Positions 4,206 to 63,165 of a stretch of DNA of 64,000 nucleotides are shown here, in pieces. Position numbers and translations under genes: made by a program. The stretch lies in assembly GCF_000189635.1 (NCBI RefSeq), contig NW_002476514.1:214506-278505 (forward strand). Direction: 5' to 3'. Positions within the stretch are counted from its first letter, which is position 1, and every line of letters begins with the position of its first letter. A model generated the notes under the pieces. It did no database searches. It saw nothing but the letters and a program-made list of their open reading frames with translations, and had not been told where the DNA came from. Source of the DNA: Tetrahymena thermophila SB210 (Eukaryota; Ciliophora; Oligohymenophorea; Hymenostomatida; Tetrahymenidae).

Positions 4206-5177
4206 TCAATTGAATTATGGATTTTGTTAAAAACATAACAATTAATATTTTCTTCTCTATAATTCTTAGTCATCATCAAATTAATCTTTTGAGTTGGTAG
4301 ATTGTTCTTCATTTTATTACTGGGTTGGTTTGTTAAATTACAGAAAATGGTTCATAGATTCTTCTTCGTAACTATCTTCTTCAAATATTCTATTATTGAT
4401 TGGTTATTTGCATGACTTATAATCAGAATAATCGTTACTTTACGCATAATTATTCGTGTTTTCGAAAGACTACTTAACACTATTTTTACTTGAGTTTATA
4501 TAAGTAGAAATTTCTTCATTTATATAGTCTTATTAATTCTATAAAGAAAGCGAGGAACTACAATTAAATAAATGAGCAGTAGAGGAAATTAAAGAGTCAT
4601 TACAATTGACTTCTTCTTTGATCATTATATCTGATTTAATTTATTTGTCGAATTTTGTGAGTTTTTTTTTTATTTGAATTTCTTAAGGATAACAAATGTT
4701 CCACAGTTCATAAAAGGAAGGTATTTCTTATTGTTCATATATTTTAAAATACTTTAAGATTAAAAGGCACACAAACTATTTTCTCACAGCTTTTAAAGCA
4801 TTATATGTTTTTTTTGTGCTGCTTTAAGTAATATCTTCTGGATTTGAAAGAATTTACTAAATATTTTATATAAATAGATCTTCTTGATTGTATTTTTTGA
4901 TATAGAAGAAATACCATTCAATAATCCTCATGTATTTAGGTTTACATTAAATAGTTTTTTGTGAGTGAATAAATGTTTTTAATTATGTGGTAGAGCTAAA
5001 GCAAAGATGTTTGACTATCAGAGGAGCGGCAACAGTTTCTAATACGTAACTCTTGATAGAATCTTAAAACCATTTATTTAGTAGATTTCTTTAGCTTGAT
5101 TAACTCGTTTTACTTAAATTAACCAAGAAGAGAATATTATTCAAAATAATGAGTTCTTAGTTATTATCTTATTTCAT
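4206..5177 (-). CDS. Gene A: family protein with conserved N-domain and PINN motif, 323 aa
   Basis: Read with TAA/TAG as glutamine, this is one open frame from ATG (5177-5175) to TGA (4208-4206). I do not recognise the family and assign no function. The conserved domain is residues 1 to about 178: RNLLNKWFQDSIKSY at 30-44, KPKYM at 79-83, NPEDIT at 112-117, VRKQFVCLLILKYF at 131-144, SFYELWNICYPQE at 154-166 and a basic KKKLTKFDK at 170-178. It is followed by a Ser/Asn/Gln-rich linker. PINNRIFEEDSYEEE then starts at residue 259, and a Gln-rich tail closes the protein. There is no signal peptide. Hydrophobic runs are short and look like helices of a soluble domain. The ATG is chosen because it matches the starts of the paralogues (M-x-Q-x-N near LII-x-x-NILFL). 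The nearest relative is A' at 36442-37413, which has exactly the same length. Confidence 0.88.
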
Positions 5178-8100
5178 TTGATTGATTGATATCTTATTGA
5201 AACTAATTTTTTTTAATTTCTTTTAATTTAATTGTAATTTATTTAATATACATTTTTAAGGATTAAGCTTTTACAGTGACAAAATTCAAGCATCCTATAA
5301 TTAATGTAATTAACATTATTATATTTTAAATAAATTTAATATATTTGGGTGTTCAAAAAATTATTAAGAAAAAGATCTTCTTCTTTGTGTACGTACATTT
5401 TTAAGAATTTCTTTTAATAATGAAAATAATATATTATCATATATTCTGATTAATTAATTTTATTTTTATATATTATAATTAATTAGCTTCAAGATAGCAT
5501 AAACTATTTAAGCTCAAATACAAGTAAGTACTCAAATTAAAGAAATAGAAAAAATATATAGCAAATTTAAACATTTTATTTTGTTCTCTCAAAAATATAT
5601 ACATAAATAAAGAATATTTACATTTGATTGGTATTTAAATTTTTTTTGATTGCAATAACTTAAACTATTTTTCAAAACTATGAAAAATATTCTATGTATT
5701 TATGTTTCTTTTAAATAATTTATTTTTATAACTTTAAATTAATTATGTAAAATTTGCAAAAAATCATTTATGTATAGTAAATCGCTTTAAATATCGTATT
5801 AAACTAGTTTATATATTGTAAAAATTCCATAAATAAGTATACATTGAAAGAAATTAAAAATTGCTCTTCGCAAATCTTAAATGAAAGTAAGGAAAGATTA
5901 AAAACAATAAACTTTCTGATCTAAATCTCAAATTAAAGTCAACCTTTTTTTATGAAATCCTAATACGCATACAAAATTATAATTTAGTTCTGATTTTTTC
6001 AAATTATCAAACTAAATATTAATAACAGTGATATGATATGTTTTATATTTTAGTTACAATTAAAAGTGAAATCCATTAAAAACTGATATTTTCTCAAAAA
6101 ACTTGTTAAAAAACTAATTTTAATCCTGGAAACCTATCACAAAAAAAATATATTATCTGATACTGATTTATTATTGTGCTGATTTTACATTAATAATTTA
6201 CAGCTTAGTTAAGCAAACTCGTGGTAAATACTAAAAGAATAATTGAGTAAATTATATTTTTACGTTAGACAGTAAAATTAAAATTTTTCATGAGATTTAT
6301 ATTATAAATTTATTTCTATCATAAAAATTATACATTAATTTTGGACTGTTTTAGATAAAATATAAATAGATGGATTTCAATTTTTAAAATATAATATCTT
6401 TTTTTAATAAACATTCATTTACAGTGTTTTTAATGATAGAATACTAGAGAATTTTTTTAAATTAATAGTTATAACAAAGTAATTAAAATTAGGTTGAATA
6501 AGTTAAAAAAGATATTATTTACATAATTTACGGGGTTTTAATTGTATTTGAATTACAAACTATTGAAAGATAAAAAGAATAAATTCCTAATACAATCAAT
6601 TCTATCAATTATTTGACGATATTTCATTTGAATAATAATAAATTAACTTTTTACCGCATAATTTAAATTTTTTTGTTTTAGATTAAATAACTTGATGAAG
6701 TAACAAGAAAATTTTCTGATTTTATGTCAAGCAACTTTTAATATTTGTAAATAAAGAAAATAATTACCTAAAATCAACCCACCATTCAAATATTGTAAAA
6801 TCAATTATGAAATTAGTATTGTTAAATCAAAATTTACCTTTAAATATTGTATCAAGCTAAATAACATACTAAAGTTTTTAAATAATTTATTTTTATTCTT
6901 TATCTTGGTAAAAATGGGAGTGCTCTTTTATGTTTTAAGACTTAAACTATTTTTTTGGAATTTAAATTAGTTGAAATTAATTTTCTTAGAAGCTGTGCCA
7001 TTTTCATAGCCTACACCCTCCCTTAATAATATTCTTTGCTTTATATGAATATATTTACTCTAAATGCTTTTTATATTTTGACATAAATTTGGTTTAATAA
7101 AATAAATTAATTTTAAAAATTATGATTAGTGAAATAATATATATTGCCTTAAAATATATTTAATAGTTTATATAAAAGATTTTGTTTGATTAGTTTAATA
7201 CAATTATTTACACATTTTAATTTGTGATAATTGAACTCATATTAAAGATCTAAAGGATATTTAATTAATCAATCAAAATAATTATGGATTTACCAAAGGA
7301 GAAATAACTTATTTAATATTATTTATTAAAATAACTTAAATAATTAATTAAATACGAAATTGATTTAAACAAATAGTTACCTTAAAATATATTTACCTTC
7401 TCTATTATACTTATTGCAACATTTTGTTATCTTTATAATCGCCTCTTATTAATTTAATGTAGGAAATATTTTCACATACTAGTTTTATTTAAAAAAATAT
7501 ACTAATTTATTAAATAAAAACTACAATCAATGTAAAATCATTTCCTTTTCTCATAGTAGAAATTATTTAGTTTTTATTAAAATAAATAAATCATTAATTG
7601 AATTATGTTATTTGTTAATATAAATTTTAATTAAAAATTAAGATTACATTCATAAATTTTATTGATATCAGAATTTAGTTTACTCTAGATTTCTCTCAAA
7701 AACTTTTAAATAATTAGATAGATTAATTCAAATTTCATTTTTTAATACGAAGATATAAAAACTGCTTGTTAAATAAATGGATATTATTTAAAATTAATAA
7801 ATATAATTTCAATGTTTAGTGTCTAATTTGTTGATTTTACAGTTATTAAAAATGTTTTTAAATAGGCTGATTTAACCAGTAATTAATCAAATAGATTATT
7901 ATATTTTTGAAAATTTAATTATTTGTATGTAAAATCCCCTTTATGATCAAATAGTTCACATTCGCTAATAAATTTAATAATATTTAGATATCATATTAAA
8001 TATATTTCAAAGACACTTAATTAACTTAAAAAAAATATCATTTTTAATTTTAAATGTAAATTCTAAGTATTCTTTTATTTCATAATTTAAATCTCCAAAT

Positions 8101-8420
8101 TAAGTGATCTTACAGTATTTACTCATATAGATTTAATAAAAATCCAAAATTAATGAAAATAAATATTGTAAATGTTATTTAACAATAATATTTTATTGAT
8201 AAATGAATTAATATATTGGTTAAAATTAATTATGTTATTCATTATTTATATAATAAATAAGAATGAAATTAACTATAATAGATAAAATAAATAATATATT
8301 TATTATTGATAGTGAATATGAAGTTAGTTATATCTATTTAATTTAAATTTTTTATTTGAGAGATAGAGGATAAAAGAATAATTTGATAATGTGAAAGTTA
8401 ATAGTATTAGTATTAATCTA
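5178..8420. other. Intergenic between genes A and B
   Basis: AT-rich and without a supportable gene on either strand. It aligns with 37414 to about 40395 and 43735-44152 in the other duplication copy, with many small indels. Around 7146 and 7379 it holds two examples of a short dispersed motif, CCTTAAAATATATTT, that recurs through the window. The junction where copy 2 has an extra 3.3 kb is at about 8015-8050. Confidence 0.6.
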
Positions 8421-9503
8421 TCAATTTTGGTTAATTTAATTCATGTGTTAGTTGTTATTTTATTATAAAAAATGGAAATTTGAAGGGTAGTTAATTTCGT
8501 AAAGTTGATCTTCATAATATTCTTATTATTAAAAGCACTTTTTGTCTTATGAGACATAGAAAAATTCTTATTAATTTTAATACTGACCGAAATAATCTGC
8601 ATCACAATTAATCTAAGTAGGTTGTTATTATTCGTTTTAGCACAAATTTGATAAGTTATTAAATTGCAGATAATGGTCCATTGATTTTTCTTCATAACTC
8701 TCTTCATCAAATATTCTATTATTTATTGGTTTTTTCTAAGAATTAAAATTAAAGTTATAGCTAATTTATAAATTTTGGTCTTATTTTATTTGATTTTAAT
8801 TATCTATCATCTGAGTACCCGAGATTGTGATAATTTTTTAATTAGATATTTCTGATTAATTATTAGAAGAAAGAGAAGTGCTGCAATTTTAGAAATTTAA
8901 AGAAGAGCGTAAAGAGCTATCTTAATCAAAATCTTATTTAAGAATGATTTTTTACTTTTTATTATCACTCTTTTTATCAAATTTAGAGAGTTTTTTCTTA
9001 ACTTGAAGTTCTTAGGGGAAGCATGTGTTCCACAAATCATAAAAGGATGCCATTTCTTGTTGACCAAATAATTTAAAGTATTTTAGGATTAGCAAACACA
9101 CAAACTATTTTCTAACAATTTTCATTGTATTGTAAGAGAGTTCACTTTCCATAGAAGTAATGTCTTCAGGATTCAAAATTATTTATTGAAGTTTGTTTAT
9201 AAACTCGTCTTATTAATTGTATTGATTTATATAAATAAAATATTATTCTATGATTCCCATGTATTTTGGTTTATTTTTGTCTATTTTTTTGTGGATAAAG
9301 GTCTTAACTTCTGTAGATGTTTTTAATTTTAGGTAGTTTGCAATCAGAGGAGATGCATAAGACTCAAAAATATAGGTTTTTATAGAATCTTAGAACCACT
9401 TATTTAGTAGATTTCTTTAGCTAGATATGGCTTAGCCACTTTGTTTAGCCAAAAAGAGAATATTCTTCATAATAATCAATTAATTTTGGTTAGCTTAGTT
9501 CAT
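8421..9503 (-). CDS. Gene B: family protein with conserved N-domain and PINN motif, 360 aa
   Basis: Single open frame under the ciliate code from ATG (9503-9501) to TGA (8423-8421), 361 codons. Most glutamines are TAA. Function is unknown. The N-terminal domain has SSQRNLLNKWFQDSIKTY at about 27-44, KPKYMGIIEQYF at 78-89, NPEDIT at 111-116, VRKQFVCLLILKYF at 130-143, SFYDLWNTCFPQE at 153-165 and KKKLSKFDKK at 169-178. A roughly 80-residue Asn/Gln/Ser linker leads to KKPINNRIFDEESYEE at 257-272, and a 90-residue Gln/Asn/Tyr-rich tail follows. The domain appears wholly alpha-helical and cytosolic or nuclear. I see no catalytic signature. The copy B' at 44153-45247 differs in length by 12 bases (four codons, in the linker). 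Confidence 0.9.
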
Positions 9504-10171
9504 TTTTTTTGGAAGTGTTTTGTGAATTTGTTTTTTATATTGTTTTTTTTTAAATTAATTGCTTGTATTTATTAAGTGCAGTTCTTCAATTTATCAAAAT
9601 ATGCAATGCCAATTTTCATAAAAAATTTAAATAACTTAAATCGATTGCATTTAATTCATTTATAATAAAGTAACGAAACTTTAATTTAAAGTAAACTAAT
9701 ATAATTAAATAAGAATGGAAAAGATTATTTTGTTGCAAAATAAATATATATATATTCTGTCGATGCTAAACAACTTATTTTAAGAATTTATCAATCAACG
9801 TAAACTGTAAGAACTCTTAAAGCTATATTTAAATGAAATAACTATTTTGTTTTAGCAATATATTTAATCTAATCTATAAAGTAGTAACAGATAATATGGT
9901 GATCAATCAGAATGTAGCTACATTAAGATTTCATATTTTTTACTAAAACCAAATTGATTTAACCATATATAAAGAAAGAGAGGTTGTTTGTTAATTATAA
10001 AGAACGAACCTCAAAACAAAAAATAAATGAAAACAAACCTATAAAAAGTGTACTTATAAACTAAAGAGTAGATAAATACTTTATATTCATAAGTAAAGAA
10101 CATATTAATTTATTGTTAGATTCTTTCAGAAAATGCTTCATTTATAAATTACCTGCTTGAATTGCTAATGG

Positions 10172-10201
10172 CTTACTTATTTACTTACCTACTTACTTAC
10201 T
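10172..10201. repeat. Short TTAC-type microsatellite
   Basis: An imperfect run of TTAC units with one TTAT and one CTAC variant. It lies immediately before the first unit of the 314-bp tandem duplication. Confidence 0.8.
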
Positions 10202-10206
10202 TTTTG

Positions 10207-13480: not shown

Positions 13481-13692
13481 TCAAGCTATAAGGTTGCTTC
13501 TTTTCCTATAGTTTATTTGCTTTATTTGACTTGTATGAATCATTAAGGCTATTTTTCGCATATTTATTTATCTCAAAATAATTGTTTGATTCTTTATAGT
13601 TTTTTAATAATTTATTCACTCTTTTTCTAAAACTTATTCAATTATTTATTATTAATATAAAGTTATGTATACATATAATTTTAATTATTTTT

Positions 13693-14066: not shown

Positions 14067-16016
14067 TCATTTATAATTAATTTCATAATATTCTAAATGG
14101 TTATTGTGGTATATATTCTAGTGAGGTATCTGATTTTAATTGTGATAAGTTGTTATTAATTATTATGAAATTAGATGAAATGGTTCATGATTCCTATTCA
14201 TAGATATCTTCTTAAATTATATTATTATTAATTGGCTTCTTTTAAGGATAATAATCATCTTAATTTTCAGGCTATTAGATATTCTTTGGTTAAAAGCCAT
14301 CTATTTTTGAAAAGAGTTAAGTAAAAGTCTCTTCTGATTAATTATAAATACTTGAACTGGTATTAAAAGAAAGAGGAGAGTGAAGGACACTGTTATTTAA
14401 AAAATAACAAGAGCACTTTTAAAGATAAAGATCATCTTAATTTTCAGAATATTAGAAATTCTTTGGTTAAAAGCCACCTATTTCTGAAGAGAGACAAATA
14501 CAAATCTCTTTTGATTAATTGTAATTACTAATTGGCTTCTTTTCAGGATAATGATCATCTTAATTTACAGGCTATTAGATATTCTTTGGTTAAAAGCCAT
14601 CTATCTTTGAAAAGAGTTAGGTAAAAGTCTCTTATGATTAATTCTAAATACTTGAATTAGAATTAAAAGAAAGAGGAGAGTGAAGGATAATATTATTTAA
14701 AAAACAACAAGAGCACTTTTAAAGATAAATATCATCTTAATTTTCAGAATATTAGAAATTCTTTGGTTAAAAGCCACTTATTTCTGAAGAGAGACAAATA
14801 GAAGTCTCTCCTGATTAATTTTAAATATTTGAATTGGAATTAAAAGAAAGAGGAGAGTAGAGGTCATTATTATTTGAAAAACAAGAAAGGCACTTTTAAG
14901 GATAAAGATCATCTTAATTTTCAGAATATTAGAAATTCTTTGGTTAAAAGCCACTTATTTATAAAGAGAGTTAAGTAGAAGTTTCTTCTTATTAATTTTT
15001 AATAGTTGATTAAGAATTAAAAGAAAGTGGAGAGTCGAGGATACTACTATTAAATAAACAAGAAGGGCCCTTTTAATGATAAAGATCATTTTATTTTTCA
15101 GAATATTAGAAATTCTTTGGTTAAAAGCCACTTATTTCTGAAGAGAGTTAAGTAGAAGTCTCTTCTTATTAATTGTTAATAGTTGATTAGGAATTAAAAG
15201 AAAGTGGAGAGTTGAGGATACTACTATTAAATAAACAAGAAGGGCGCTTTTAATGATTTAGATCATCTTAAATTTCAGAAAATTAGAAATTATTTGGTTA
15301 ATAAAATTCATCTATTTTTGAAGACAGTTAAGTAAAAGTTTCTTCTTATAAATTTTTAATAGTTGATTAGGAATTAAAAGAAAGAGGAAAGTCGAGGCTA
15401 TTAATAAAACTAGTAGATCTTTTTAAACTAGTGTTTAGATTATCTTCATTTCTAATCTAGGATTTCAAAGTTTTATTTTGAGCCTTTTTGTCAAATTTAG
15501 AGAGTTTTTTTTTAGTTTAAATTTATTATGGGAAGCAAATATTCCATAGTTCATAAAATGAGGGAATGTCCAACAACCCAAATAACTCAAAGTATCTTTA
15601 GATTAAAAAACACACAAATTACTTTCTAACAGTTTTCTGAGCTTTGTAACTTTAATCTTCTTATTGTTGAGTAATATCAATAGGATTCAAAAGAATTTCA
15701 TGAAGTTTTTATAGAAAAAGGTCTTATTAGTTGTATCTGATAATTTAGATAAAATATTATTCAATGATTCCCATGTACTTAGGTTTATTTTTGTCTGTTT
15801 ACTCGTGAATGAAGGCTTTAACTTAAGCGGAAGACCTTAAATTAAGGTATTTAGCAATTAGAGGAGATGCAGTCGATTCAAAAATATAAGTCTTAATAGA
15901 ATCTTAGAACCATTTATTTAGTAGATTTCTTTGACCTGTTTAAGTTTTTTATGAATTTCAGATAAGAAGAGTATATTTTTTTGAATGATTTACTCTTGCT
16001 TATTTAATTTTTTCAT
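14067..16016 (-). pseudogene. Gene C: expanded, frameshifted member of the PINN family
   Basis: Homologue of intact C' (51613-52659). The start is at 16016 and the position equivalent to the C' stop is 14069-14067. Three one-base deletions relative to C' disrupt it. The first is at about 15925, in the AAAAAACTTAAACAGG stretch just before RNLLNKWFQDS. The second is at about 14186, turning TCC ATG into an in-frame TCATGA stop before the NHF segment. The third is at about 14155 in the tail. The domain body between them is open and normal (WFQDSIKTYIFE, KPKYMGIIEQYF, FYELWNICFPQ). The linker is greatly lengthened by seven in-frame repeat units (see 14235-15415), so the ancestral product would have been about 650 residues against 348 in C'. 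The assembly could be wrong at an A-run, but three separate one-base losses make real decay more likely. Confidence 0.8.
14235..15415 (-). repeat. In-gene tandem repeat, 177-bp unit, seven units
   Basis: The anchor ATTCTTTGGT (last unit ATTATTTGGT) occurs at 14281, 14458, 14581, 14758, 14935, 15112 and 15289. Spacings are 177, 123, 177, 177, 177 and 177 bp, all multiples of three. Each 177-bp unit encodes 59 residues around motifs such as SPLSFNS, ETSTQLSSEISGFQPKNF and QDDLYHQKGPSC. The short 123-bp unit is a hybrid. It contains a stray copy of the KKPI-type motif sequence from the constant C-terminal part, so it probably arose by unequal recombination across that boundary. C' has one unit only. 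Confidence 0.9.
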
Positions 16017-19000: not shown

Positions 19001-19079
19001 GATTCCAGATCACATCAATCAACACAATATTAAAAACTCTTTATTAAAATAATTAATTTTTCATACTGTTTCTTACCAA

Positions 19080-20520: not shown

Positions 20521-22114
20521 TTACGATAAACTTACATGTCATTCATTATTTAAAAATAAATGAGGATATTACATCAGTAATTTTCTAACAAATTTTATTA
20601 CATCAAGAGATTCATTTTTTAATTGAATAATAAAGGAAGATCAAAATCATATATTATTTTTGCCTCAATTGTTTTTGAAAATATCCAAAACAAATGTTAA
20701 TACACTCAAAATTTTATTTGAGAAATGACATTCATTCATTTAATTTATAAAGTAGAACTCAGCAATATATTCACCTACTTAATTTATTTATTATAACAGA
20801 TATTTTAATTCTTAAAAAATATTTGAAAAGAGCATACTTTCTTTATAGTATATAAATAGATACAAATACTAATTTTAAATTATTTTAATCTTATAAATTT
20901 TCCTTTATTCTATTTATTTGATTTACTTTATCATTTTTTATATGATATTTTTATAATTTTATGGAATTTTTTGCTGGAAAATTTCTTCATGGTTTTTTAA
21001 ATTTCATACAGATAAATTACAGTTTTAATCTACATAGCTTGAAGAATTAAGGTGAATTTTATTATATTTAAATCATGGTTTGATATACATTTGCTATTGA
21101 TTTAAAGAAAGTAAATAAATGAAAAATCTTTTATAATCAGTTTAAAATATAATAATTACAATAATGAACATGAAGATTTCATCTATATTTTGAAGTAAAA
21201 TTTTATATTTTAATTTGATACTTAGTCAGTCATCATTCATTATTAAACAAATTAATGATGAAATATCATTATAGAGCAAAAACATTAGGTCATAAGTCAG
21301 CTTTAATTTTTGTTTCACCAATAAAAGAGTGTTGTTTTTTTCAAACACTTATTTATGATATTTGAATAGCAAGTAAATTAATTGCTAGAAAGTTTAAAAT
21401 AAGGTGGCTAATTTGCATTATTATAAAAATCATTATTGATTGTGGTAATTAATTAAGAAAAGAGGAAAAATAAATAATCAATTTATAAAAACTCATTATT
21501 AATTTGAAAATTTCATTTAAATTTACTTAATTCTTGTTGATTGATTCTTTTTTTAAGTTGATTTAACTAATTACTATATTCATTACCCAAATTCCATTCA
21601 ATCAATATGTTTATTTTATATATATTTTTATTTATTTATGTCAATAATTAAATGCTCTGTTATTCTTACTTACTTTACCTACAAACTAATAATTACATTT
21701 ATTTAAAAATTAGCTGTACATCGGTGAAATCAATCTTAAAAAATTGTGAGATAAATTAATTGAAAGTTTCTTGGTTTAAACAAAGTGTAATAAATTTTTA
21801 TTTAAATACTTACAATAAAAGAAGGTTTGTTTAATTCATCTGATATTCATTCCTGAAAATATAGAAAGACGGAAATATAATCTTTCTTAATTGTATATAA
21901 TAAATGAATCAACCATTTTACAAATTTTTTGAAATTTCTTTTCCAAATTAGAAATAATTTTTTTGAGCTTTAAATTAATTAAATTTTATATGAAGTAGAA
22001 TCTATTTCAAAATTAAAAAATATTCACATAATTTATATTTCAATTAAATTAAAGTAAGAAATAAAAAATCTTTAAATTAGATTGTAATCTCTATGAAAAC
22101 ATTTGAAAATAAAA

Positions 22115-22388
<274 letters not shown>

Positions 22389-22748: not shown

Positions 22749-23696
22749 TCATTCAATTTATATATTTTCATATACTTATTAATAGTTTTCTTTGCAATTA
22801 TTTTAATGAGAGAGGCATTACTCTTCTTAGTGTGTATTATAATTGTTATTATGAAATTTTAGAAAATGACTCTTGGATTCTTATTAGTAGCTGTCCTCTT
22901 CAAATATTTGGTTATTAATTGGCTGTTTCTAAGAACAGAAAACCTATTCTTAGATCATCTAATTGTCTTTAGATAATTCTATATTTTATTAATCTAAACC
23001 ATTTAATTTTTAAAACAAAAAATTAGAATGCGATTCTTATTAGATATTTGGTTAGATTCCATGATTAAGAGAAGTGCTACTATTTATAAAAATAAAAGAA
23101 TTTTAAAATGAATTATTTAAATAAAATTAATCTTAGATCTAGATTTACTACTTATTTTTTGCATATTTGTCGAATTTTGATAGTTTCTTTTTAATTTGAA
23201 CTTCTTAAGGGAAACAGATGTTCCACAATTCATAAAATGAAGGAATTTCTAGTATACCAAACACCTCAAAGTACCTTAGGATTAGAAAACACACAAATTG
23301 CTTTCTGACAGTTTTTAAAATTTTTTTGCTATATTCATCGTTTAATGTAGTAATGTCAATAGGGTTCAACAAAATTTAATGAAGCTTTTTTACAAAAATA
23401 TCACTTTAGTTGTATTTGTTGATATGGATAAAATATTATTCAATGATTCCCATATACTTAGGTTTAGTTTTGTCTGTTTTCTTATGGATAAATGCTTTGA
23501 GTCCTGCTGAAGAGTATATTTTAAGATGTTTAGAGATCAGAGGATATGCGATAGATTCCAAAATATAACTTTTTATTGAATCTTAGAACCATTTATTTAG
23601 TTGATTTCTTTCGCTTTGAATGGATTTTTTGTTTTTCTCAGCTAAGTAGAGTATATTTTTCATAATTACCAACTGGTCTTCATTTGGTTAGAACAT
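22749..23696 (-). CDS. Gene D: family protein with conserved N-domain and PINN motif, 315 aa
   Basis: Open from ATG (23696-23694) to TGA (22751-22749) with TAA/TAG as glutamine. It is the shortest intact member because its C-terminal tail is short. The conserved domain contains RNQLNKWFQDSIKSYILE at 30-47, KPKYMGIIEQYF at 78-89, NPIDIT at 111-116, VRKQFVCFLILRYF at 130-143, SFYELWNICFPQE at 153-165 and KKKLSKFDK at 169-177. KQPINNQIFEEDSYQQES follows from 257, with the proline again at residue 259. Function is unknown. The gene lies between the two copies of the segmental duplication and has no partner in the window as close as A is to A'. The linker is as long as in A, B and E although its sequence is largely different. 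Confidence 0.88.
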
Positions 23697-28729: not shown

Positions 28730-29806
28730 TCAATCATCATTATGATTAAGATAATAATTTTATTAATAGTTATTTTAATATAATTGATGTTATTAATAGC
28801 ATAAATATTCTTATTAGTCTATTAAAAATTATTATTAATCTTAGAAAGATTCTTATTAGTTTTAGAAAGGTAGTTATTAATCTTCATGATTGAAATTGAT
28901 TGGTTAATAATCAACTTAGTTATTAAATTAGTCTTTATTTTATTAGAAGGTAGAATAATTATAGTTTTAATCAAAATAGTTAATATATTCTTCTTAATAG
29001 CTGTCTTCTTCAAAGATACCATTATTAATTGGTTACTTTTAAGAATTAGGTTCATATTTATAGTCACTTTCACTTTAGAAAGGGACTTAATATAAGTCAG
29101 AATTGCTAATTATCTTAATATTTGGGATTTCGATTACTTATAAACCAGTGATTTCTAATCTATTAGAATGAGGAGTAGAGCTATTGGAATTTAAAAGGTT
29201 TAAAGAAGTATTTAAAGACTTATTTTCAGCAAGTTCTTATTTATGATTGGCTTATGACCTTTTACTTTTACTCTTTGTATCGTATTTAGAAAGTTTTTTT
29301 TTTACTTAAACAACTTAGGGGAAGCAGTTATTCCAAAGATCATAAAAAGATGACATTTCTTGTTGGCCATATAAATTAAAGTACTTTAAGATTAGAAAAG
29401 ATACAAATTATTTTCTAACTTTTTTCATACAATTGTAAGAACAATCTTAACTCAAATTAGTAATATCTATGGGTTCCAAAAGAATCTCTTGAAGCTTTGC
29501 TGTAAAAGTGTACTTTTAGTTGTATTAATTAATATAATTAAAATATTAATCAATGATTCCCATATATATAGGCTTATTTTAGTTAATTTATTAGCGGATA
29601 AGTGCTTTAACGGATTAGGCAGATTCTAAATTAAGGTAATCAACAATCAGGGGAGATGCAACTGATTCCATAAAATAGCTCTTAATAGAATCTTAAAACC
29701 ATTTATTTAGTAAATTTCTTTAGCTTTATAAGCTTTTTTTGCTTGATTAAGCTAAAAAGAGAACATTTTTCATAATAATCAACTCACCTTAGTTAATTTA
29801 GCTCAT
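28730..29806 (-). CDS. Gene E: family protein with PINN motif and long Gln/Asn tail, 358 aa
   Basis: Open frame from ATG (29806-29804) to TGA (28732-28730). The domain has QSQRNLLNKWFQDSIKSY at 27-44, KPIYMGIIDQYF at 78-89, EPIDIT at 111-116, VRKQFVSFLILKYF at 130-143, SFYDLWNNCFPQ at 153-164 and KKKLSKYD at 169-176. KQPINNGIFEEDSYQEE starts at 257 and a second, weaker QPINFNHEDQQ appears at about 301-311. The last 60 residues are mostly Gln, Asn and Tyr. It is the most diverged intact member in the window: cysteine in RKQFVC is serine, and KPKYM is KPIYM. Function is unknown. It stands outside the duplicated segments. A copy of its 3' end lies 1.2 kb upstream of its start. Confidence 0.88.
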
Positions 29807-32059: not shown

Positions 32060-32497
32060 TCAATTTTAGATTTTTATCTATTCTTCTTATAATAGCTCTA
32101 GATTATTATTTGTTTGTAGATAATTGCTCTTAGGCTCTAATTCGTAGCTTTCTTCTTCAAATATCATATTGTTAATAGGCTGTTTTTAAGGTATATTGAC
32201 TAAGCTTTGGTTTACTTAAAAATTTTCATATTATTATATATTAGATTAATCAACATTATTTAATGTTTAATTGCTTAAATTTTCAAGAGATATATTATGT
32301 TCGCTAATAAAAGAAAACAAAGTATTAATATTTACAAATTTTTTAGATTAATAATTAGAAAGTTTTTTATCATTTTAGGTATTAATATTTTGAGATAGCA
32401 TTTTTAAATTTATATTTTTTTCTTTTTTGTTATATTTGGTGAGTTTATTTCTATTAAATCTCTTAGGGGAAGGAGGTCTTCCATAACTCATAGATTT
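32060..32497 (-). pseudogene. C-terminal half of a PINN-family gene, decayed
   Basis: Reading leftwards from 32497, the sequence encodes YELWKTSFPQE, equivalent to the SFYxLWNxCFPQE block. A one-base frameshift follows near 32455. A frame of about 130 codons then continues with NKLTKYNKK, an Asn/Ser linker and KQPINNMIFEEESYELEPKSN, ending at TGA 32062-32060. Upstream of 32500 only blurred similarity to the RKQFV region can be traced and the first 130 residues are missing. The remnant ends about 200 bp before the left edge of duplication copy 2, so it may mark where the segment joined. Confidence 0.8.
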
Positions 32498-36441: not shown

Positions 36442-37413
36442 TCAATTGAATTATGTATTTTGTTAAAAATTTTACAATTAATATTGTCCTCTCTATAATA
36501 CTTAGTCATTATCAAATTAATCTTTTGAATAGGTAGATTGCTCTTCATTTTATTATTAGAATTGTTTGTTAAATTACAGAAAATGGTTCATAGATTCTTC
36601 TTCATAACTATCTTCTTCAAATATTCTATTATTAATTGGTTATTTGCATGAATTGTAATCAGAATAATCACTACTTTACGCATCATTATTCGTGTTTTCG
36701 AACAACTACTTATCACTATTTTTTCTTGAGTTTATATAAGTAGAAATTTCTTAATTTAAATAGTCTTATTAATTGGATAAAGAAAGTGAGGAACTACAAT
36801 TCAAAAAATGATCAGTAGAGGAAATTAAAGAATCATTACAATTGACTTCTTCTTTGATCTTTATATCTGATTTAATTTATCTGTCGAACTTAGTGAGTTT
36901 TTTTTTTATTTAAATTTCTTAAGGATAGCAAATGTTCCACAGCTCATAAAACGAAGGTACTTCTAATTATCCATATATTTTAAAATACTTTAAGATTAAA
37001 AGGCATACAAACTATTTTCTCACAGTTTTTAAAGTATTGTATGTTTTTTTTGTGCTGCTTTAAGTAATATCTTCAGGATTTGAAAGAATTTACTAAAGAT
37101 TTTATATAAATAGATCTTCTTGATTGTATTTTTTGATATAGAAGAAATACTATTCAATAATCCTCATGTATTTAGGTTTGCATTAAATAGTTTTTTGTGA
37201 GTGAATAAATGTTTTCAATTATGCGGTAGAGCTAAAACAAAGATGTTTGACTATCAGAGGAGCAGCAACAGATTCTAATACATAACTCTTGATAGAATCT
37301 TAAAACCATTTATTTAGTAGATTTCTTGAACTTGATTAACTTGTTTTACTTAAATTAACCAAGAAGAGAATATTATTTAAAACAATGAGTTCTTCGTTAT
37401 TATCTTATTTCAT
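36442..37413 (-). CDS. Gene A': duplicate of gene A, 323 aa
   Basis: ATG at 37413-37411 and TGA at 36444-36442 give 324 codons, exactly as many as gene A. Over the first 90 residues the two differ at only about six places: for example EELIV for QELII, SSSRN for SSQRN, LESVA for LETVA and EQYFF for EWYFF. The conserved WFQDSIKSYVLE, KPKYMRIIE, NPEDIT and SFYELWN blocks and the acidic PINNRIFEEDSYEEE motif are kept. The intergenic DNA on both sides has many indels relative to copy 1 while this frame shows no net length change, which suggests selection to keep the protein. Function unknown. Confidence 0.88.
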
Positions 37414-44152: not shown

Positions 44153-45247
44153 TCAATTTTGATTAATTTAGTTCATGTTTTAGTTATTATTTTATTACTA
44201 AAAATGAAAATTTTAAGGATAGCTAATTTCACAAAGTTAATCTTCATAATATCCTTATTATTAAAAGCACTATTAATCTTATGAGACATTGAAAAATTCT
44301 TATTAATTTTAATACTTTTCGAAATAGTCTTCATCACAATTAATTTAAATAGATTGTTATTATTCATTTTAGAACGAATTTGAAAAGTTATTAAATTGCA
44401 GATAATGGTTCATAGATTCTTCTTCATAACTTTCTTCTTCAAATATTCTATTATTTATTGGTTTTTTCTCAGAGTTAAAATTAAAGTTATTGCTAATTTA
44501 AAAGCTTTGATCTTATTTTACTTGATATTAATTTTTTATCCCTAAAATAGTTGAGATTGTGAAAATTTCTTAGTTAGATATTTCTGATTAATTTTTAGAG
44601 GAAAAAAAAGTGCTGCGATTTAAGAAGTTAATAGGAGTGTGTAAATTGTGTAAAGATTTGTCTTAATCAAAATCTTATTTAAGATGAATGCTTTTTAAGT
44701 CTTTATTATCGCTCTTTTTATCAAACCTAGAGAGTTTTTTTTTGACTTGAAGTTCTTAGGGGAAGCATATGTTCCACAAATCATAAAAGGAGGACATTTC
44801 TTATTGGCCAAATAATTCAAAGTATTTTAGGATTAGTAAACACACGAACTATTTTCTAACAGTTTTCATTGTATTGTAAGAGAGTTGATTTTTCATTGAA
44901 GTAATGTCTTCAGGATTCAAAAGTATTTATTGAAGTTTGTTTATAAAGGCATCTTATTTATTGCATTATTTGAGATAAATAAAATATTATTCAATGATTC
45001 CCATGTATTTTGGTTTATTCTTGTCTGTTTTTTTGTGGATAAAGGCTTTGACTTCTGTGGAGGTTTTTAATTTTAGGTAATCTGCGATCAGAGGAGATGC
45101 ATAAGACTCAAATATATAGGTCTTTATAGAATCTTAGAACCATTTATTTAGTAAATTTCTTTGGCTAGGAATGGCTTAACCACTTTGTTTAGCCAAATAG
45201 AGAATGTTGTTTTTAATAATCAACTAATTTTAGTTATTTTAGTCCAT
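44153..45247 (-). CDS. Gene B': duplicate of gene B, 364 aa
   Basis: Open from ATG (45247-45245) to TGA (44155-44153). It aligns with gene B along its whole length. The domain keeps SQRNLLNKWFQDSIKTYIFE, KPKYMGIIEQYF, NPEDIT, TVRKQFVCLLILKYFELF, SFYDLWNICFPQE and KKKLSRFDKK. The linker is four residues longer than in B, and the motif PINNRIFEEESYEEE starts at residue 263. From that proline to the end both proteins have exactly 102 residues. The acidic motif is closer to the family consensus here than in B, which has FDEESYEEK. Function unknown. Confidence 0.9.
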
Positions 45248-51612: not shown

Positions 51613-52659
51613 TCATTCATAATTAATTTCATAATGCTCTAAATGGTTATTGCTGTATATATTCTAGTCAGGTATCTGATTTTAATTCTGATAAGTTGCT
51701 TATTAATTATAATAAAATTAGAGAAAATGGTTCATGGACTCCTCTTCGTATTAATCTTCTTCATATATATTATTATTAATTGGCTAATTTTAAGGATAAA
51801 GATCATCTTAGTAGCTCATTAATAAGTTTTCAGACTATTAGATATTGTTTGATTAAGAAAAGCCATCTATTTTCGAAGAAATAAAAACAGAAGGCTCTTC
51901 TTATTACTTTTAAATATTTGAATAGGGATTAAAATATAGAGAAGAGTGGAAGACACTACTATTTAAAAAACAAGAAGAGCTTTTTAAACTAGTGTTTAGA
52001 TTACCTTCATTGCTAATCTCGAATTTCAAAGTTTTATTTTCAACCTTTTTGTCACATGAGCTTTTTAAACTAGTGTTTAGATTACCTTCATTGCTAATCT
52101 AGAATTTCAAAGTTTTATTTTCAACCTTTTTGTCAAATTTCGAGAGTTTTTTTTTAGTTTAAATTTCTAGCGGGAAGCAGATATTCCATAGTTCATAAAA
52201 TGAGGGAATGTCTTATTACCCAAATAGCTCAAAGTATCTTAAGATTAGAAAACACACAAATTATTTTCTAACAATCTTCTCAGTGTTATAATTTTACTTT
52301 TCTTTTTGTTGAGTAATATCAACAGGATTCAAAAGAATTTCATATAGTTTTTACAGAAAAAGGTCTTTTTGGTTATATTTGATAATTTAGATAAAATATT
52401 ACTCAATAATTCCCATATACTTAGGTTTATTTGGCTCTGTTTACTAGTGAATGAAGGCTTTAACTTAAGCGGAAGAGCTTAAATTAAGGTATTTAGCAAT
52501 TAAAGGAGATGCAATCTATTCAAAAATATAAGTCTTAATAGAATCTTAGAACCATTTATTTAGTAGATTTCTTTCACCTTTTTAAGATTTTTTATGAAAG
52601 TCTGCTAAGTGGAGTATATTTTTCTTAATGATTAACTCTTCATTATTTAATTATTTCAT
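51613..52659 (-). CDS. Gene C': PINN-family protein with internal 27-aa duplication, 348 aa
   Basis: ATG at 52659-52657 and TGA at 51615-51613 frame 349 codons with no break. The domain contains GERNLLNKWFQDSIKTYIFE from about residue 28, followed by the KPKYMGII, RKQFV and FYELWN-type blocks. The basic KKLSKFDKK block is followed by a perfect-frame duplication of 27 residues (81 bp). NQPINNNIYEEDQYEEES then begins at about residue 293, with tyrosine for phenylalanine and glutamine for serine compared with the other members. The C-terminal tail is short (54 residues from the proline). Its partner C in copy 1 has expanded a neighbouring linker segment sevenfold and is frameshifted. C' is therefore probably the working copy. 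Function unknown. Confidence 0.88.
51977..52138 (-). repeat. In-gene 81-bp tandem duplication
   Basis: Two units with an 81-bp period begin GAGCTTTTTAAACTAGTGTT at 51977 and 52058 and are nearly identical, so the event is recent. The length is 27 codons and the frame is kept. Gene C in copy 1 has one unit of this segment but many of the adjacent 177-bp unit. Confidence 0.9.
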
Positions 52660-55600: not shown

Positions 55601-58600
55601 ATTTATTAAATCATAAAAAATGTTTTGGCTTTTAATAGAAAATATTTCAGTTCACTGTTATAAAAAATCAAACATTTAAAGTTAAGGAGGATTCACTAAT
55701 TCAAGCATTAAATAAGAAAGAATAAAAAATATTTTAAAAATTTAGTGTAATTAGATAGATAAATTGTTTAAATTGTAATAATTTCTTAATTTTTTTAGCT
55801 TTATCTATTTTAATTTGCATTACGCTTTCATAGTCATTATTTAATTTGAAGGAAGCTATGGAAAAAACACATCCTAAAAATAAATCAATTTACGCTATCT
55901 CTTTAATTAAAAATTTCACTTGCAATTATTATTTACCAGGTTTACTTACTAAAAATCTCTAAGAAATTTAAAAAAAGTAATAATATCCTAAATAATTAGG
56001 ATTATGATGTAATATCAATTTTGCTTTTTTAATTAACAAACTTTGTTTTATGTACAGGGAGGAGGGATTAATAAATAATTGATGTTTCTAAATTTTATTG
56101 GATCTCTTTTTTTACGAAGACCATTTTTTAGCAAAGCTAAATCGAAAAATGATTTCAAATCAAATCAAGTCAATATTAAAAATTCTTGATTAAAATAATT
56201 TTTCATACCATTTAATGTAAATTTCATAATTAACAAATGGTAATTTAAAGGTATAAAACATTACAAAAAAGGAATTTAGTATAATTTAGATATTATCGAA
56301 TTATTCAATAAATAAAAAGATCATTAAGTGTAAATTAAAATATTCAAATAATTTTTGCCAAATTGTAATTTAATGGTATAAAACAATATAAAATAGTATA
56401 ATTTAGATATTATCGAATTATTCAATAAATAAAATGATCATTAAGTGTTAATTAAAAATATTTAAATAATTTGTTTAAATTGACAAAATTTACTCTTCTA
56501 TTTTTTAGAAAATAGAAAACTTACATTATTTTATTTTAAAGAAAGTATACTTCTTAATACTTAAAAGTATTCGTTTAGAAAAATTTATAAAACACTATTA
56601 TATTTTTAACTCACTCCAAAGATGTCAAGTAATAACGTTAAGAAAATTTTTGTTATTAGATATGATTTTTCTTAAAAATAATAACTATAAACACAGTAAG
56701 ATTTCTAATAATCTAATCTTTTATCTATATTAATAATAGATCACATTTTTTGGTTTATATTTCTTTTATATTTTGTGTCAACTTCAATAGAAAAATTAAT
56801 AAAATTTAAATTAATAATCTAAGTAGATAAATAAATCAAGCTTGATTAACAACCGGAAATTTAAAAACTAAATTTCTTTTTTATAAGACATTTTAAATTA
56901 TTTGTAAAATATATTTCTATTTGAAAAGTAAAATATATTAAAGAAAGCAAATTTAAGACAACAGTGGCTTTTTTAAAGAAAATATTCTATCCTAAAACAG
57001 TATATTTCTTTTAAAATTATCATTATTTTAGTAATTTTTTTTTGTAAAAATGATAAGAAATTAAAAATATGTCGATTCAATACAAATTTTGTATGTAGCC
57101 TTGAAAAAGGCAGTGTCTCAGGGTATTATATATTAGTCGATTTGATTGGTTAGTACTAAAAAAATTTTCTATCAGTAAAAAAAAAATTTAACTAAAAAGC
57201 ATGAAATTTTTCTATTTGATTTTTGCATTTAAATTCTAACTTTTTATTAAAAAATGATTATTTAATACAGAAATTAGTCTATTATTAAATATAGTATGAA
57301 TTAATGATGAGTTGATAAATACAGTAATTGTTTAGTTAATAAGGTTTTTTAAATAAAATTAAAGGTAAAAAAGTGAGTTTATTTACTTTAAATGCTTAAT
57401 TATTAAAATCATTATTTTCCTTTAAAATATTAATCTCCTTAAAATATTACTTTACTTAAAACATTATTTTTCCTTAAATTATTAATTTGCGTAAAAGTAT
57501 TACTAAAAACTAACATGTCAATATTTAAAAATGAGAATCTTATAACAGTAACTTTCAAAAAAATTATTTATTATTTATAGATTTTAAAATTAGATGTAAA
57601 ATTAATTGAAATTGATTCATATGATTTATAATTTTTTAAATCCTTATTTAAAATTAAGAAAAAATATTTTTTAATAATACATTTATCTATTATAAAATTA
57701 TATAGTCTTTTAAAGCTAGCTAAAATATCATTTATTTTGTTAGTTCTACAAAGTTTTTTGTAATGGTAAATTAAATATTAGTAATAAAAATATTACCGTA
57801 AATCCTCGATAGGTACTGCTTTACTAATTGCTAATTTTTTTAAAATGTATGATTTTTCTATCATTTTTACCCACAGCCTCACTATTTTTTTGCGGATTAC
57901 GAATTATGAGGAATTAAGATAATTCTTTTTTAATGTTGAATAATTATAATCATTACTTCCCCTTAAAATATTATATTTATAAAATATAATCATTTATCTA
58001 TTATTAAATGATAACCTTATTTTACTGATAGATAAAATAACTATTTGGTTTATATAAAAAAATAATTATAGATAGTAAATCTTAAAAATTATAAGTAAAA
58101 ATTAAAATAAATTAATTAACATGATGTTTAATTTCCAAATCTTATTTAAGATATTTAAAAATATTTTTAAAAATATTAATTTGTCTATTATTAATAAAAA
58201 AATATAAAATTAGTCGATAAATCATTTGTATTACTAATTAATTATATGAATGTCTATTTTAATAATGATAATCTTTTACTAGTCGATAAATTAATTATTT
58301 TGTTAATACAAAATTTTTTTTTTAGCAGTAGATTTAAAATTAGAAGATATATAAGAATAATAATTAGATGCTATTAAATTTTTAAATACTAATTTAAAAT
58401 ATAGAAAAACATTTTTTCACAATATAATCTATCTATCAATCAATTATTAAAATTATCAATAATTTAGCTAATTCTTTCTCTAAATTTTTTTATTATAGCT
58501 TATAAATAAAAATAAAGATTTTAATATTATTGTAAATATAATGATTTATTACTCTCAATATTCAATTATTAAAATCATTACTTTACTTTAGAATATTATT

Positions 58601-60013
58601 ACAATAAAAGATATGTTTATTAATTTAAATAGTGTTAACTTTATTTTAATCAATTAGTTAATTAATACTAGTACTAAAAATTATCCAAATAAAGCTATTT
58701 AATATTCATTTCAACCCAACATATCATTTTTTTTGTTAATTTCTTAATAATAATTTATTTTAAAGTCATTTATTTAATGATTATGCTAAGATGTTATAGT
58801 AAAATTATTTACAAAATTCACATCTGAAAGATATATGAAAAACATTAATCAAGGAGAATTAATAAAAAGTTTAGATAATCTGGTTAATATTTTTTAATTT
58901 CAAATAAATAAATCATAATATTATATATAATACAATTAGTTTTATATAGAATAATTATAAATTATCAAAATAAATTACCCACTATTATTTATTTAATTTC
59001 TAAATATTATATTTTGCGATCTATTTTTATAGTAACTACTTAACATATATTAGACACTACTATTAAATTAAATTAAAAATCAACAAATAATTTAATATAA
59101 AATAAAATAATTTTTTTTTAACTCATGAAAATTTAAAAATTCTATGTAGAAGCAGATTCAAAATAGTGAAGGAGTTTTAATTATCTTGAACTGCTTAAAT
59201 AAAATTATAATATTCAAAAGAAAACCAATAAGTTGATTAAAAATAAATATATCTGAAAGAAAAAAATAATAAAACAGTTTTTGATGTTCTAATGCTATAA
59301 GATGACTTTAATATTTAATAAATTTTAAGAGTAACACTTTTAAAAAGAAAAGAAATATTATATTTTTAGTTTATTATATAATAATGTGAAAGGATATTCT
59401 CCATAAATAGATTTATATGATATTTCATTCAACTATACAAAAAAAATACAAGATTTGATTTAGTAAAAGAAAGATACTGTGAATTTGCTCAAAGTACTGT
59501 TAAAGAAATTATATTTTTGCTTTCTTAAAATACATTTACTTAAAATAATTTATTTATTTATTTAGGCTGTAATAAACTTTTTTTATTAACTTTTAATATA
59601 ATTTATTTTTCTTTTTATTCTGCTAAAATTATTTTTATTTATTGATTTAAATTTCATTTAAAATTTAAACATTTTATTCTAGTTAATTTTGTTTAGTAAT
59701 TTAAACTAATTTATATAAAAAGTTAAAAAAGTATCAATAAATCAGAAGAATTGAAAGTAGAGAACAAAACAAGTGACTTAAATCAAAAAGATTAGTTGTA
59801 TTTGAAATATGTTTATAATTTTAATAAATAAATGGTAAAAAAATATGAATAAATATAAAAATTTATGAATAATAGAAAATAATATTATTTATTTTAAAAT
59901 TATTAGTTATAGAATAATTTAACTTTAAATAAAGATAATAGCTTATATTATAAGAAACAAAGACAAGACTTTAATTTTTAAGTAAAATTATTTAAGTATA
60001 TCACTCCAATTAT
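52660..60013. other. Intergenic, AT-rich, right end of duplication copy 2 and beyond
   Basis: To about 57560 it aligns with 16017-20600. From there to 60000 the DNA is extremely A+T-rich, with several CTTAAAATATT-type motifs around 57961-58600, and I see no gene. A 58-bp insertion with a hairpin lies at 57078-57135. Confidence 0.6.
57078..57135. mobile_element. 58-bp insertion with hairpin, flanked by 7-bp direct repeats
   Basis: Both units of the aligned copy 1 sequence have one GTCGATT (19880 and 20145). Here GTCGATT occurs twice, at 57071-57077 and 57136-57142, with 58 bp between. The insert is much less A+T-rich than its surroundings and holds GCCTT-GAAA-AAGGC, a five-base-pair stem with a GAAA tetraloop, followed by CAGTGTCTCAGGG. 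The duplicated heptamer looks like a target-site duplication. The insert is too short to code for anything and I do not recognise it. A non-autonomous element or an inserted cDNA of a small structured RNA are both possible. Confidence 0.55.
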
Positions 60014-62390
60014 TCAAGCAAATAGATCATATATCACATCCTTGTTATTAATCTTTTTAAACATAAACCCATATTCTTTACAAGCTATTGATATTAAAAT
60101 TATCTCCATTTCCATTTTTAATAAATAGATTGTAATTATTTAGCATACTTAAAATTCCTTGATTTTGCTATTACATTCATACATCTATACATAACAAGTA
60201 TTAACTTATAAATATAATAATAATTAACATTTTATAATGTGTTCTTTTTGCTGCTCTCACAATTTTCATTATAGACTGAGTAAATTATTCGGATTAGAAC
60301 GCTCTTTCCATTATATTATCTAAAATTTCTCCCATTTACTAAATATTCTCCAATGAGTTATCTGTGCAGACAAGTATTCTATTTCTTCCTTCTTTAATAT
60401 CTTTAATTAGGGTTAATGCTTCTTCAATTCCAACATTTATTTGATGGATAAATTAGGTAGGAATGTTTTTCAAATCTTTTTAATATTGTGTGTTTTCTAT
60501 TATCCTGTTTATATGATTGATTATTTTCTTTTAAAATTCTTAAATAATCAAATTCTCCTACCGATATTTTTGATATGGAATTAAGAACAGTCTCTATTTT
60601 TTATATAAGTATAAAAAGTATCTGAGTTCAATTTTGATGAAAATTAATCATTCATGTTCAATTGAGAACTTTTAAGTCTGGTAGCTATCTCATTATATTG
60701 TTCCTATATTTAATTCACAATTGATTCAATCATGTTTTTAATCATAGAAAAGGAAGTGCATCATAATAACTCCTTTCTTTTTTCATCAGTTCTAGATGAT
60801 CTTCCTTATTCATTTATTTATTAATTACTAATATTATTTATTATCTAACTCAATTTTTGTTATGTTTTTCTCTAAGGGTGAATAGTCTTTTCCAACTCTT
60901 AGTAAACTTAAAACTCTTGGCCTATGTTTTCTGTATTTATTTTAGATAAAATATCTCGTAAGGTAGAAGATATTTTTTTTATATAATGCTCTAAAGTTTA
61001 TAGGATGTCTTTGTGGGCCTTTGCTTGGATTCTTGCAACATCTTTCCTTTTATTAATAACTTGAAGTGTAGAAATTTATTATAACTCTGATTCATATATT
61101 AGTAAATTCTACTTGATGTAATAATTTCTATTACCTAACTCCGATTTATTATATCAGTACTTCCAGTTCCTATATCTTCTAATATAACATTTGGCTTTGC
61201 AATTTAGTTCTTCCTTCCATTTCACATATAAGTAAATACTAATGATTTATTTCTTATATTTTCACTTGAACGATTGATTGATTTTTAGATTATAGATATA
61301 CTATCTGGGAAAGTTCTTGATGTTCTCTATCACTCTAATGTATAGTGTGGGAAGCCATGTGTTTAGCTTAAACTAATTTCTTACAAGAAATCTATTTTTG
61401 AGATTATCATAGCTTCATTGATAAATTAAAGGGGTTGATTTTTTTGGATAATCATTTTTTGATTTAACTATTATTCTAGCAATTGATTTCTAGAGAAAAA
61501 ATTTGATGCTATTTATTCAGCCCATTAGGTACTGAGCCTTACAGCATATATTTATTATTTTTTCGTATTTTTGATTGATTACTATCAAAAGTTATTTTCA
61601 TCTTGAATCCATCAGCTATTGCTCTTAATGCTTCTTTATTCATAGGTAGGTAAGGGATACCTTTATTCATCATCTTCCAGATAAAAATGTCATATTATAT
61701 TGATAACCCTGGTTATTTTATCCCCATGCTTTTAACTTTCTCCAACATTTTTTCAAAATAATCAAGACTAGCAAAAACAAATTTATGTTTCAAATTCTCT
61801 GAGCTACTTAAGATAGATGCAGTTAGCAACAAATTAAGTTCATAGATATCCTATAGTAGTTTATCATCATCTTTATTAATTAGTTGATGATAGGTAAACT
61901 CTATATTGTTCCATAAAAGTAATAGTTACTTAAGATAATTCCATTTCCATGTTAAATATCATCCTTGTTAAGAGTCTGTAAATAATTGGTATCAGATCTT
62001 AACGTTCTTATTCTGCCTATATCAAAAGTACATTTGCTTATAAAATGATTACTTCATCTACAATTGCTTTTTCATTAAAAGAAAAGCAGATTAAGTATAT
62101 AGTTTCGATCTTCTTCCTTTCTTCCTGGATTATCCCTACAATTTGGTTTGATAGACTATTCTCTAATTCCATTTCCCATTTCCATGAAAATAAAAACGAA
62201 ATAGGTAAAAAATAAGGAAACAGTTTAAGATAAGGAGATGGTTAATCATGGCCTAAAATCGAGCGATAAATGCTAGTATGAATGAATTTGATTGATATTT
62301 AAGAATCTATTAAAAGGATGACCATCCTTAGGTTAAGAATCACCTAAAGTATAATAAGTTGAGAATATTCATTAGTAGGATTTAGCAAAG
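60014..62390 (-). pseudogene. Decayed gene for a coiled-coil protein, many frameshifts
   Basis: The minus strand carries a chain of clearly protein-like segments in changing frames. Landmarks from N to C are GDSQPKDGHPFNRF (about 62340), QEERKKIETIYLI (62120), LLQDIYELNLLLTASILSS (61830), EALRAIADGFKMKITFD (61620), a block near 61430 with SKIDFLQEISLSQTHGFP, then DREHQELSQIVYL, DVARIQAKAHKDILQTLEHY (61030), IKNMIESIVNQIQEQYNE (60730), EEALTLIKDIKEGRN (60420) and KNGNGDNFNINSLQ (60110). Frame changes lie near 61905, 61515, 61335, 61100 and 60605, with an in-frame TGA near 60755. The 61000-60250 part has heptad-like Ile/Leu spacing typical of a coiled coil. Base composition is less A+T-rich than the surroundings. 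Some breaks could be unspliced introns, but no GT-AG pairs are evident. I do not recognise the family with confidence. Confidence 0.65.
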
Positions 62391-62949
62391 AATCAATTTA
62401 TTTATGTATCAAATCCTTAAATGTTACAAACTTGCTATCTATTTAATCAACAATTTTTCTACTTTAAGGTATAAATATAATTAAACTGCAAATTCAGTAA
62501 ATCATATTTAACTCTTAATTCATATTGCTTTTAATATTTTTTGACATTACTAAAACTCTAAACATACATATGAAATATGTTTATTTATAAAAATTGAAGA
62601 AATGATTATCCATAAATTTATTTAACAATACAGTATTTTGGTTGATAAGTTTATTTAATTAAATTGAACTTTTCATTAATTTGATTGAGTATTATTGATT
62701 ATTTTTGTCACAGCTCATTAAGAGTTGGAATTTTAAATTAATTACATAGCTCAAAATAACACAAATTTAGATAGCAGACAAGTTATTTTTTAAAAATTCA
62801 ATGTACTTTTATTTTATCACTAGTTCTCTTGAATAATTGAATAAAAGAGGTAAGGTTCAAAAATATTTAGTTGTTTTTCTATAAAAAATTTTTTTTAATT
62901 GCGATTTTTGATGTGAGTATGATATTATTTAATTAATATCATGTAGTAG
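62391..62949. other. Intergenic between two pseudogenes
   Basis: AT-rich, nothing recognisable. Confidence 0.5.
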
Positions 62950-63165
62950 TTAGATTTATTTATTTCTTATTTGCTTATGAGAAAGGCTTTTACTCAAACT
63001 AAAGTGGTTAAATAAAGATACTTAATAATTAAAGGAGAATCAATAGATTCTATAATATAGCTTTTATCCCAATCTTAAAATGATTTATTTATATTTATTT
63101 AGTTAACTTCTAAATCTTTTATTTTTATAAACTAATAAGAGAATATTTGTCATAATAATAAATTC
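62950..63165 (-). pseudogene. N-terminal remnant of a PINN-family gene
   Basis: From 63165 leftwards the sequence encodes EFIIMTNILLLV, matching the family start ELIIMKNILFLA. After frame changes it encodes SYIIESIDSPLIIKYL and KAFLISKQ, matching SYILESIASPLI and KAFIHKK. The W of NKWFQDS is lost, one TGA interrupts the frame, and the rest of the gene is absent. It has the same orientation as all other members and is the rightmost trace of the family in the window. Confidence 0.75.

Follow-up and report, generated by a model that had tools for sequence, protein, structure and literature searches.

A tandem and dispersed gene family in Tetrahymena thermophila with a predicted helical domain and an acidic motif: candidate nuclear regulators

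The family and its proposed role

The DNA analysed here (the window) is a stretch of 64,000 nucleotides of Tetrahymena thermophila SB210, positions 214506-278505 of contig NW_002476514.1 (C59 below). It contains seven intact genes and three broken copies, all on the minus strand, which have in common a domain of about 170 residues and/or a short acidic motif, PINNxIFEE(D/E). The family is real, and larger than first described: protein searches of the genome (101,022,631 bases, 445 contigs) matched at least 43 places, of which 20 are on C59 and 23 on other contigs. We hypothesise that its members are lineage-specific nuclear, SUMO-regulated regulators of transcription or chromatin. We hold this proposal at a little under even confidence, its four elements (location, modification, partners and role) all being read from sequence features. 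The features concerned are a basic patch directly past the domain, an excess of SUMO-acceptor consensus sites in the tails of the dispersed members, and a domain and motif that are both under purifying selection.

The seven genes, all on the minus strand, are A (4206-5177, 323 residues), B (8421-9503, 360 residues), D (22749-23696, 315 residues), E (28730-29806, 358 residues from the ATG that matches the other genes), F (36442-37413, 323 residues), G (44153-45247, 364 residues) and H (51613-52659, 348 residues). Gene A is open under genetic code 6 and aligns with the family; B and D were defined by open reading frame under code 6, alignment and tblastn, E by alignment and tblastn, and F, G and H by open reading frame and self-comparison. 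For E and F a longer open reading frame exists, and the start was taken to be the ATG that aligns with the other genes. All seven read from ATG to TGA. The family genes are rich in in-frame TAA and TAG, with TGA as stop (the interior of gene B has 33 TAA, 3 TAG and no TGA), and they therefore fit code 6. Domain identity among the seven is 57-93% (mean 65%, 21 pairs), with 79 or 80 invariant alignment columns, depending on the N-terminal bounds chosen for two of the genes.

The broken copies, again on the minus strand, are copy C (14070-16014), which has a TGA near the N terminus, another just past the motif, and a repeat-expanded linker; a remnant with tail and motif only (32078-32492); and a remnant with part of the domain (62711-63177, best expectation value (E) 8e-16), the two remnants being found by tblastn. 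A tblastn search of the window with 25 family domains and the seven whole proteins (E <= 1e-3) matched exactly these ten, with copy C split into two matches. An earlier reading of the window, made from sequence alone, had described seven intact and at least three broken minus-strand genes of a family of unknown function with a short constrained motif. Open reading frames and tblastn bear out the inventory, and the substitution rates and genome-wide pattern searches given below support the description.

The places on C59 span about 133 kb to 278 kb, 19 on the minus strand and one on the plus strand, and include copy C, the two window fragments and a degenerate copy, L034. For so large a family these counts are lower bounds. 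On the other hand, some matches have E values as high as 0.001, and only weak matches back two places on C288, one at C114:821135 and a few more, the first three being among the 23 dispersed places. Twenty dispersed loci were read. They have the same domain, followed by unlike tails that consist overall of 17% Q, 14% N and 10% S (Q and N together 31%). These tails are not alignable by eye and would thus be nearly independent samples. The tails of dispersed members L027, L037, L038 and L042 and of cluster member L023 extend past the sequence examined, and introns were left out of the reading (L029 looks cut short), so that absence of a motif below means absence in the sequence examined. Dispersed relatives on C336, C214, C122, C288 and C114 also occur in pairs about 5-13 kb apart, and local duplication may have occurred outside the main cluster too.

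The predicted helical domain

The domain was modelled with AlphaFold2 for residues 1-177 of gene G (44717-45247, minus strand). The model has eight helices, with a mean predicted local distance difference test score (pLDDT) of 82.7 and a predicted template modelling score (pTM) of 0.80. Its counterparts, also on the minus strand, are at 4638-5177 (A), 8970-9503 (B), 23163-23696 (D), 29273-29806 (E), 36874-37413 (F) and 52126-52659 (H), and in the open piece of copy C at 15493-15957.

The domain is thus predicted to be an eight-helix fold, and one that is not recognised. No Pfam family was above the cut-off in the seven whole window proteins, in ten dispersed proteins or in 25 domains; in the search with the 25 domains each family listed was matched by one member only, with a best sub-cut-off E of 0.0009. 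Structure searches against the PDB, using both the full-length and the domain models, gave no significant match, and a search of viral structures (BFVD) with the full-length model gave a best E of 0.18. Profile comparison with PDB sequences brought up three picornavirus capsid chains at E 0.03, which were taken as chance. The sequence-only reading had recognised neither domain nor motif. The net charge of the domain is positive in all 25 members compared, from +2 to +15.

The acidic motif

In gene G the motif is PINNRIFEEESYEEE, at 44417-44461 on the minus strand, identified by alignment and by a genome-wide pattern search. The counterparts, on the same strand, are at 4359-4403 (A), 8685-8729 (B), 14191-14235 (copy C), 22878-22922 (D), 28988-29032 (E), 32135-32179 (the tail remnant), 36595-36639 (F) and 51739-51783 (H). 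The motif had been described as invariant and C-terminal. It is not strictly invariant, being PINN[RQGN]I[FY][ED]E[DE] across the seven genes, and it is not C-terminal either: from the I of INN to the stop there are 55-101 residues.

The back-translated pattern INNxIFE(D/E) has 13 matches in the genome. Eleven are in the family, ten of them on C59 and one on C123. In the other two, on C91 and C103, the reading frame has no acidic run, and a reversed control pattern also gave two matches; they were therefore set aside as chance. The motif is almost exclusive to the family. A second dispersed relative, on C122, carries IDNQIFED, so that the strict motif is present in two of the 20 dispersed relatives (7,066 tail residues). 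This compares with 0.00015 expected by shuffling, and none of 20,000 shuffles reached it; the shuffles, here and for the SUMO sites below, preserve composition only, and cluster paralogues are not independent of each other. The relatives on C123 and C122 sit across the deepest branch of a midpoint-rooted domain tree from the cluster. Since the motif occurs on both sides of this branch, it is probably ancestral, with later loss from most of the dispersed members; independent gains are less likely.

In the full-length model the motif is disordered (pLDDT about 32-33), a weak indication given an alignment of only seven rows. IFEED was also considered as a SUMO-interacting motif and dropped, as it seems to be without the hydrophobic run that such motifs require.

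Spacing and selection

The ratio of non-synonymous to synonymous substitution rates (dN/dS) was calculated for the 21 pairs of the seven genes. It is 0.11-0.30 in the domain and 0.38-1.33 in the linker. A motif value could be calculated for 16 of the 21 pairs, and is 0 in one and 0.09-0.33 in the other 15. These are simple Nei-Gojobori estimates, with synonymous sites near saturation in many pairs, and the region past the motif is too short and too saturated for a clear value. The low ratios in the domain and in most motif pairs exclude chance. The domain and the motif are under purifying selection, and the sequence of the linker is close to neutral. The marked divergence of the linker, remarked on in the sequence-only reading, is thus matched by a nearly free rate of change, and the ratio is not near 1 throughout.

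The length of the linker is not free. The spacer from the KKKL at the domain end to the motif was measured in 15 of the 17 cluster copies, the exceptions being L019, whose linker is expanded, and L023, which is without the motif. It is 89-101 residues long in 14 of the 15 and 125 in the other, which bears a duplication of 81 bp. The stretch between motif and stop varies from 39 to 122 residues across the cluster copies measured. The coefficient of variation in length is 0.09 for the domain-motif spacer and 0.29 for the part from motif to stop. Counted from the NK of the domain, the motif is 225-237 residues away in 14 of 16 cluster copies, and 215 and 313 residues away in the two motif-bearing dispersed relatives. 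The earlier proposal of a spacer of fixed length therefore largely holds within the cluster, and does not extend to those two relatives. Similarly, the motif proline had been placed at residue 259 in A, B, D and E; this is correct and applies also to F (five of seven genes), while the proline is at 263 in G and 293 in H. In gene H an 81-bp tandem duplication in the linker (51977-52138, minus strand; 97.5% self-match between 51977-52057 and 52058-52138) adds 27 residues, which is why the proline is at 293 rather than 266.

Clues to a possible nuclear role

Directly past the domain, 31 of the 35 members measured have a basic patch of at least three K or R in five residues, compared with 28 of 242 other 35-residue pieces of tail. 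Counting covered 35 residues, starting at the last W detected at the domain end; L026 and L051, two of 37 members, had no W in range and were dropped, and of the four misses three (L032, L033 and L066) used a W other than the last of the domain.

Nuclear regulators commonly carry the classical SUMO-acceptor consensus, [VILMF]KxE. The tails of the 20 dispersed members have 30 such sites against 6.8 expected (4.4-fold, z 8.8), and 13 of the 20 have at least one. In the same tails the reversed pattern occurs three times and two permuted patterns eight and seven times, each with 6.8-6.9 expected. Background open reading frames from the same genome, picked by length and G+C so that some may not be genes, have eight sites against 12.7 expected (22 frames, 7,678 residues) and, in a smaller set of eight frames, six against 5.0. 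The 17 cluster tails have 16 sites against 4.1 expected. Together, the basic patch and the SUMO-consensus enrichment in the dispersed tails point to the nucleus. In Tetrahymena cells undergoing conjugation, the transcription factor Spt6 is reported to be covalently modified by SUMO (PMC10830130).

Two members have unusual tails. In dispersed L027 (C184:753413-753895) there are eleven [VILMF]KxE sites in the tail examined, several of them IKQE or VKQE. Cluster member L023 (C59:199061-199696) has a very long tail, with at least 708 residues from the ATG; the INNxIFEE motif was not found in the sequence examined and there are seven SUMO-consensus sites, as though these had taken the place of the motif.

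A model for the function, and alternatives

On the basis of these observations a model can be put forward. The N-terminal eight-helix domain would most likely bind chromatin, DNA or a partner from the transcription machinery, and the basic patch at its end would direct nuclear import. The tail, rich in Q, N and S, would be disordered, multivalent and under SUMO control, with acceptor-type sites in many members. INNxIFE(D/E) and the acidic/aromatic run, present in most of the cluster and in two dispersed members, would form an acidic activation or docking element, read about 90 residues from the domain by a partner common to most cluster members.

Several observations weigh against this model. 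No DNA-binding or chromatin domain was recognised by Pfam in the seven window proteins, ten dispersed proteins and 25 domains. Neither a positive charge nor a Q/N-rich tail sets nuclear proteins apart when the genome is AT-rich. The strict motif is missing from 18 of the 20 dispersed relatives in the sequence examined, four of which run past its end. Among the dispersed tails L027 alone accounts for 11 of the 30 SUMO-consensus sites, 19 remaining without it against 6.1 expected. In the cluster the signal leans on L023 (seven of 16 sites), and there is an excess of the permuted control K[VILMF]xE too, at 14 against 4.05; the cluster signal is thus not specific, and taken by itself it would not make the case. 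A [VILMF]KxE site is present in three of the seven intact window genes (A, F and H) and absent from B, D, E and G, a weak signal for these genes considered on their own.

A constrained domain and a constrained motif at a near-constant spacing are also what would be expected of a two-site adaptor. The protein could then be a cytoplasmic scaffold with no nuclear role, the domain binding one partner and INNxIFEE docking a second at a set distance, and the lack of any DNA-binding family above the cut-off is in keeping with this. We regard it as unlikely, as the basic patch in 31 of 35 members and the SUMO-consensus enrichment in the dispersed relatives fit a nuclear protein better. The positive domain, acidic motif and near-fixed spacer might also be explained if the motif folds back on the domain, or if it acts jointly with the domain as a signal for degradation, much as the sequence-only reading had suggested. 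This we consider improbable. Nothing found here supports such a joint action: the motif is disordered in the full-length model (on its seven rows), the spacing differs in the two motif-bearing relatives, and 18 of the 20 domain-bearing dispersed relatives are without the strict motif in the sequence examined.

The tandem arrangement, with some copies broken, could also suggest genes of a mobile element, or genes domesticated from one, for example with a capsid-like or transposase-derived domain. We judge this very improbable. A block of 20-25 kb, copied together with its spacers and not as single mobile units, contains six of the ten window copies, and the unlike tails of the dispersed relatives contrast with recent mobile copies. 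A match to a transposon family, which the sequence-only reading had named as evidence against its proposal, was not seen above the Pfam cut-off, nor was there any other Pfam family above it, a significant PDB match or a viral-structure match to the full-length model. Pattern searches of prokaryote genome contigs and viral contigs gave 25 and 38 matches, and no relative was confirmed among them. Finally, three of the ten window copies are broken, as in a decaying and non-functional array; with a domain dN/dS of 0.11-0.30 in 21 pairs and seven open frames, this is scarcely credible. The nuclear-regulator model remains the one that we prefer.

Growth of the array

Self-comparison of the window shows that one stretch (528-20600), containing A, B, broken copy C and their spacers, is collinear with a second (32707-57573), containing F, G, H and their spacers. 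The genes pair as A with F, B with G, and C with H. The main pieces of the two block copies are about 71-84% identical, intergenic DNA included, and the array therefore grew partly by one block duplication. In copy C the linker (14185-15406) has grown into repeat units of about 177 bp, with an open frame of 590 residues.

In a tree of 37 domains, rooted by midpoint only and built without the fragments or the degenerate L034, all 17 C59 rows lie on one side of a single branch with support 100/98, and this branch is present in 100% of 200 bootstrap trees. The nearest outsiders are the relatives on C38, C442, C13, C184 and C418. A single founder on C59 would have multiplied by tandem and block duplication, in birth-and-death evolution.

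Relation to known systems

Species-specific tandem gene clusters, chiefly of leucine-rich repeat genes, are described for Tetrahymena in PMC6564038. The present cluster resembles them in that tandem paralogues have multiplied in one lineage, with other sequence between them. It differs in that no leucine-rich repeat is recognised (no Pfam family above the cut-off), and in being part of a larger dispersed family. With SUMO-regulated transcription and chromatin proteins the family has in common a basic patch, a disordered Q/N-rich tail and acceptor-consensus sites; here, in contrast, there is no known DNA-binding or chromatin domain, and the sites are predicted only.

Four motif and domain peptides had no text match in the open-licence literature, where supplementary tables may list the genes by number, and no open-licence paper found by topic describes such a family in its title or the start of its abstract. 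The family is not named in the available parts of PMC6564038, PMC12716044, PMC10830130 and PMC6562869, the last a review of nuclear proteomics. In Paramecium, according to PMC12716044, which also deals with MITS proteins, basal transcription factors are absent by sequence similarity or highly divergent, and ciliate gene regulation is thus an open question. There is also a precedent for proteins of the transcription machinery that are specific to one lineage. Some 40 places with one domain, a nuclear-type patch and SUMO-consensus sites provide a concrete regulator candidate in a genetically tractable host. A bolder reading, suggested by the sequences of this one genome, is that the family could be a ciliate-specific class of transcriptional regulators, with about 40 members, a new helical domain and a new activation or docking motif. 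This is doubtful, and the same doubt covers, jointly with it, the idea that such a class might make up a sizeable part of the uncharted set of ciliate gene regulators, one branch of it in tandem birth-and-death. The cluster is in addition a natural series of paralogues, in which the domain and motif are kept as the spacer sequence drifts.

Other features of the window

A scan of the window with Rfam gave nothing at gathering scores, and Pfam, run on ten other large open reading frames of the window, gave just one sub-threshold match, to TMEM100 (E 0.0089). At 60000-62500 two open reading frames were tried and had no Pfam match. The G+C content of this region is 0.21-0.30 (in 250-base steps), compared with 0.12-0.14 before it and 0.19 after it, and several open frames overlap there on both strands; it is perhaps a decayed or intron-containing gene. 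A tandem repeat at 22112-22379, reading TNQL..., has copies that are about 89-92% identical.

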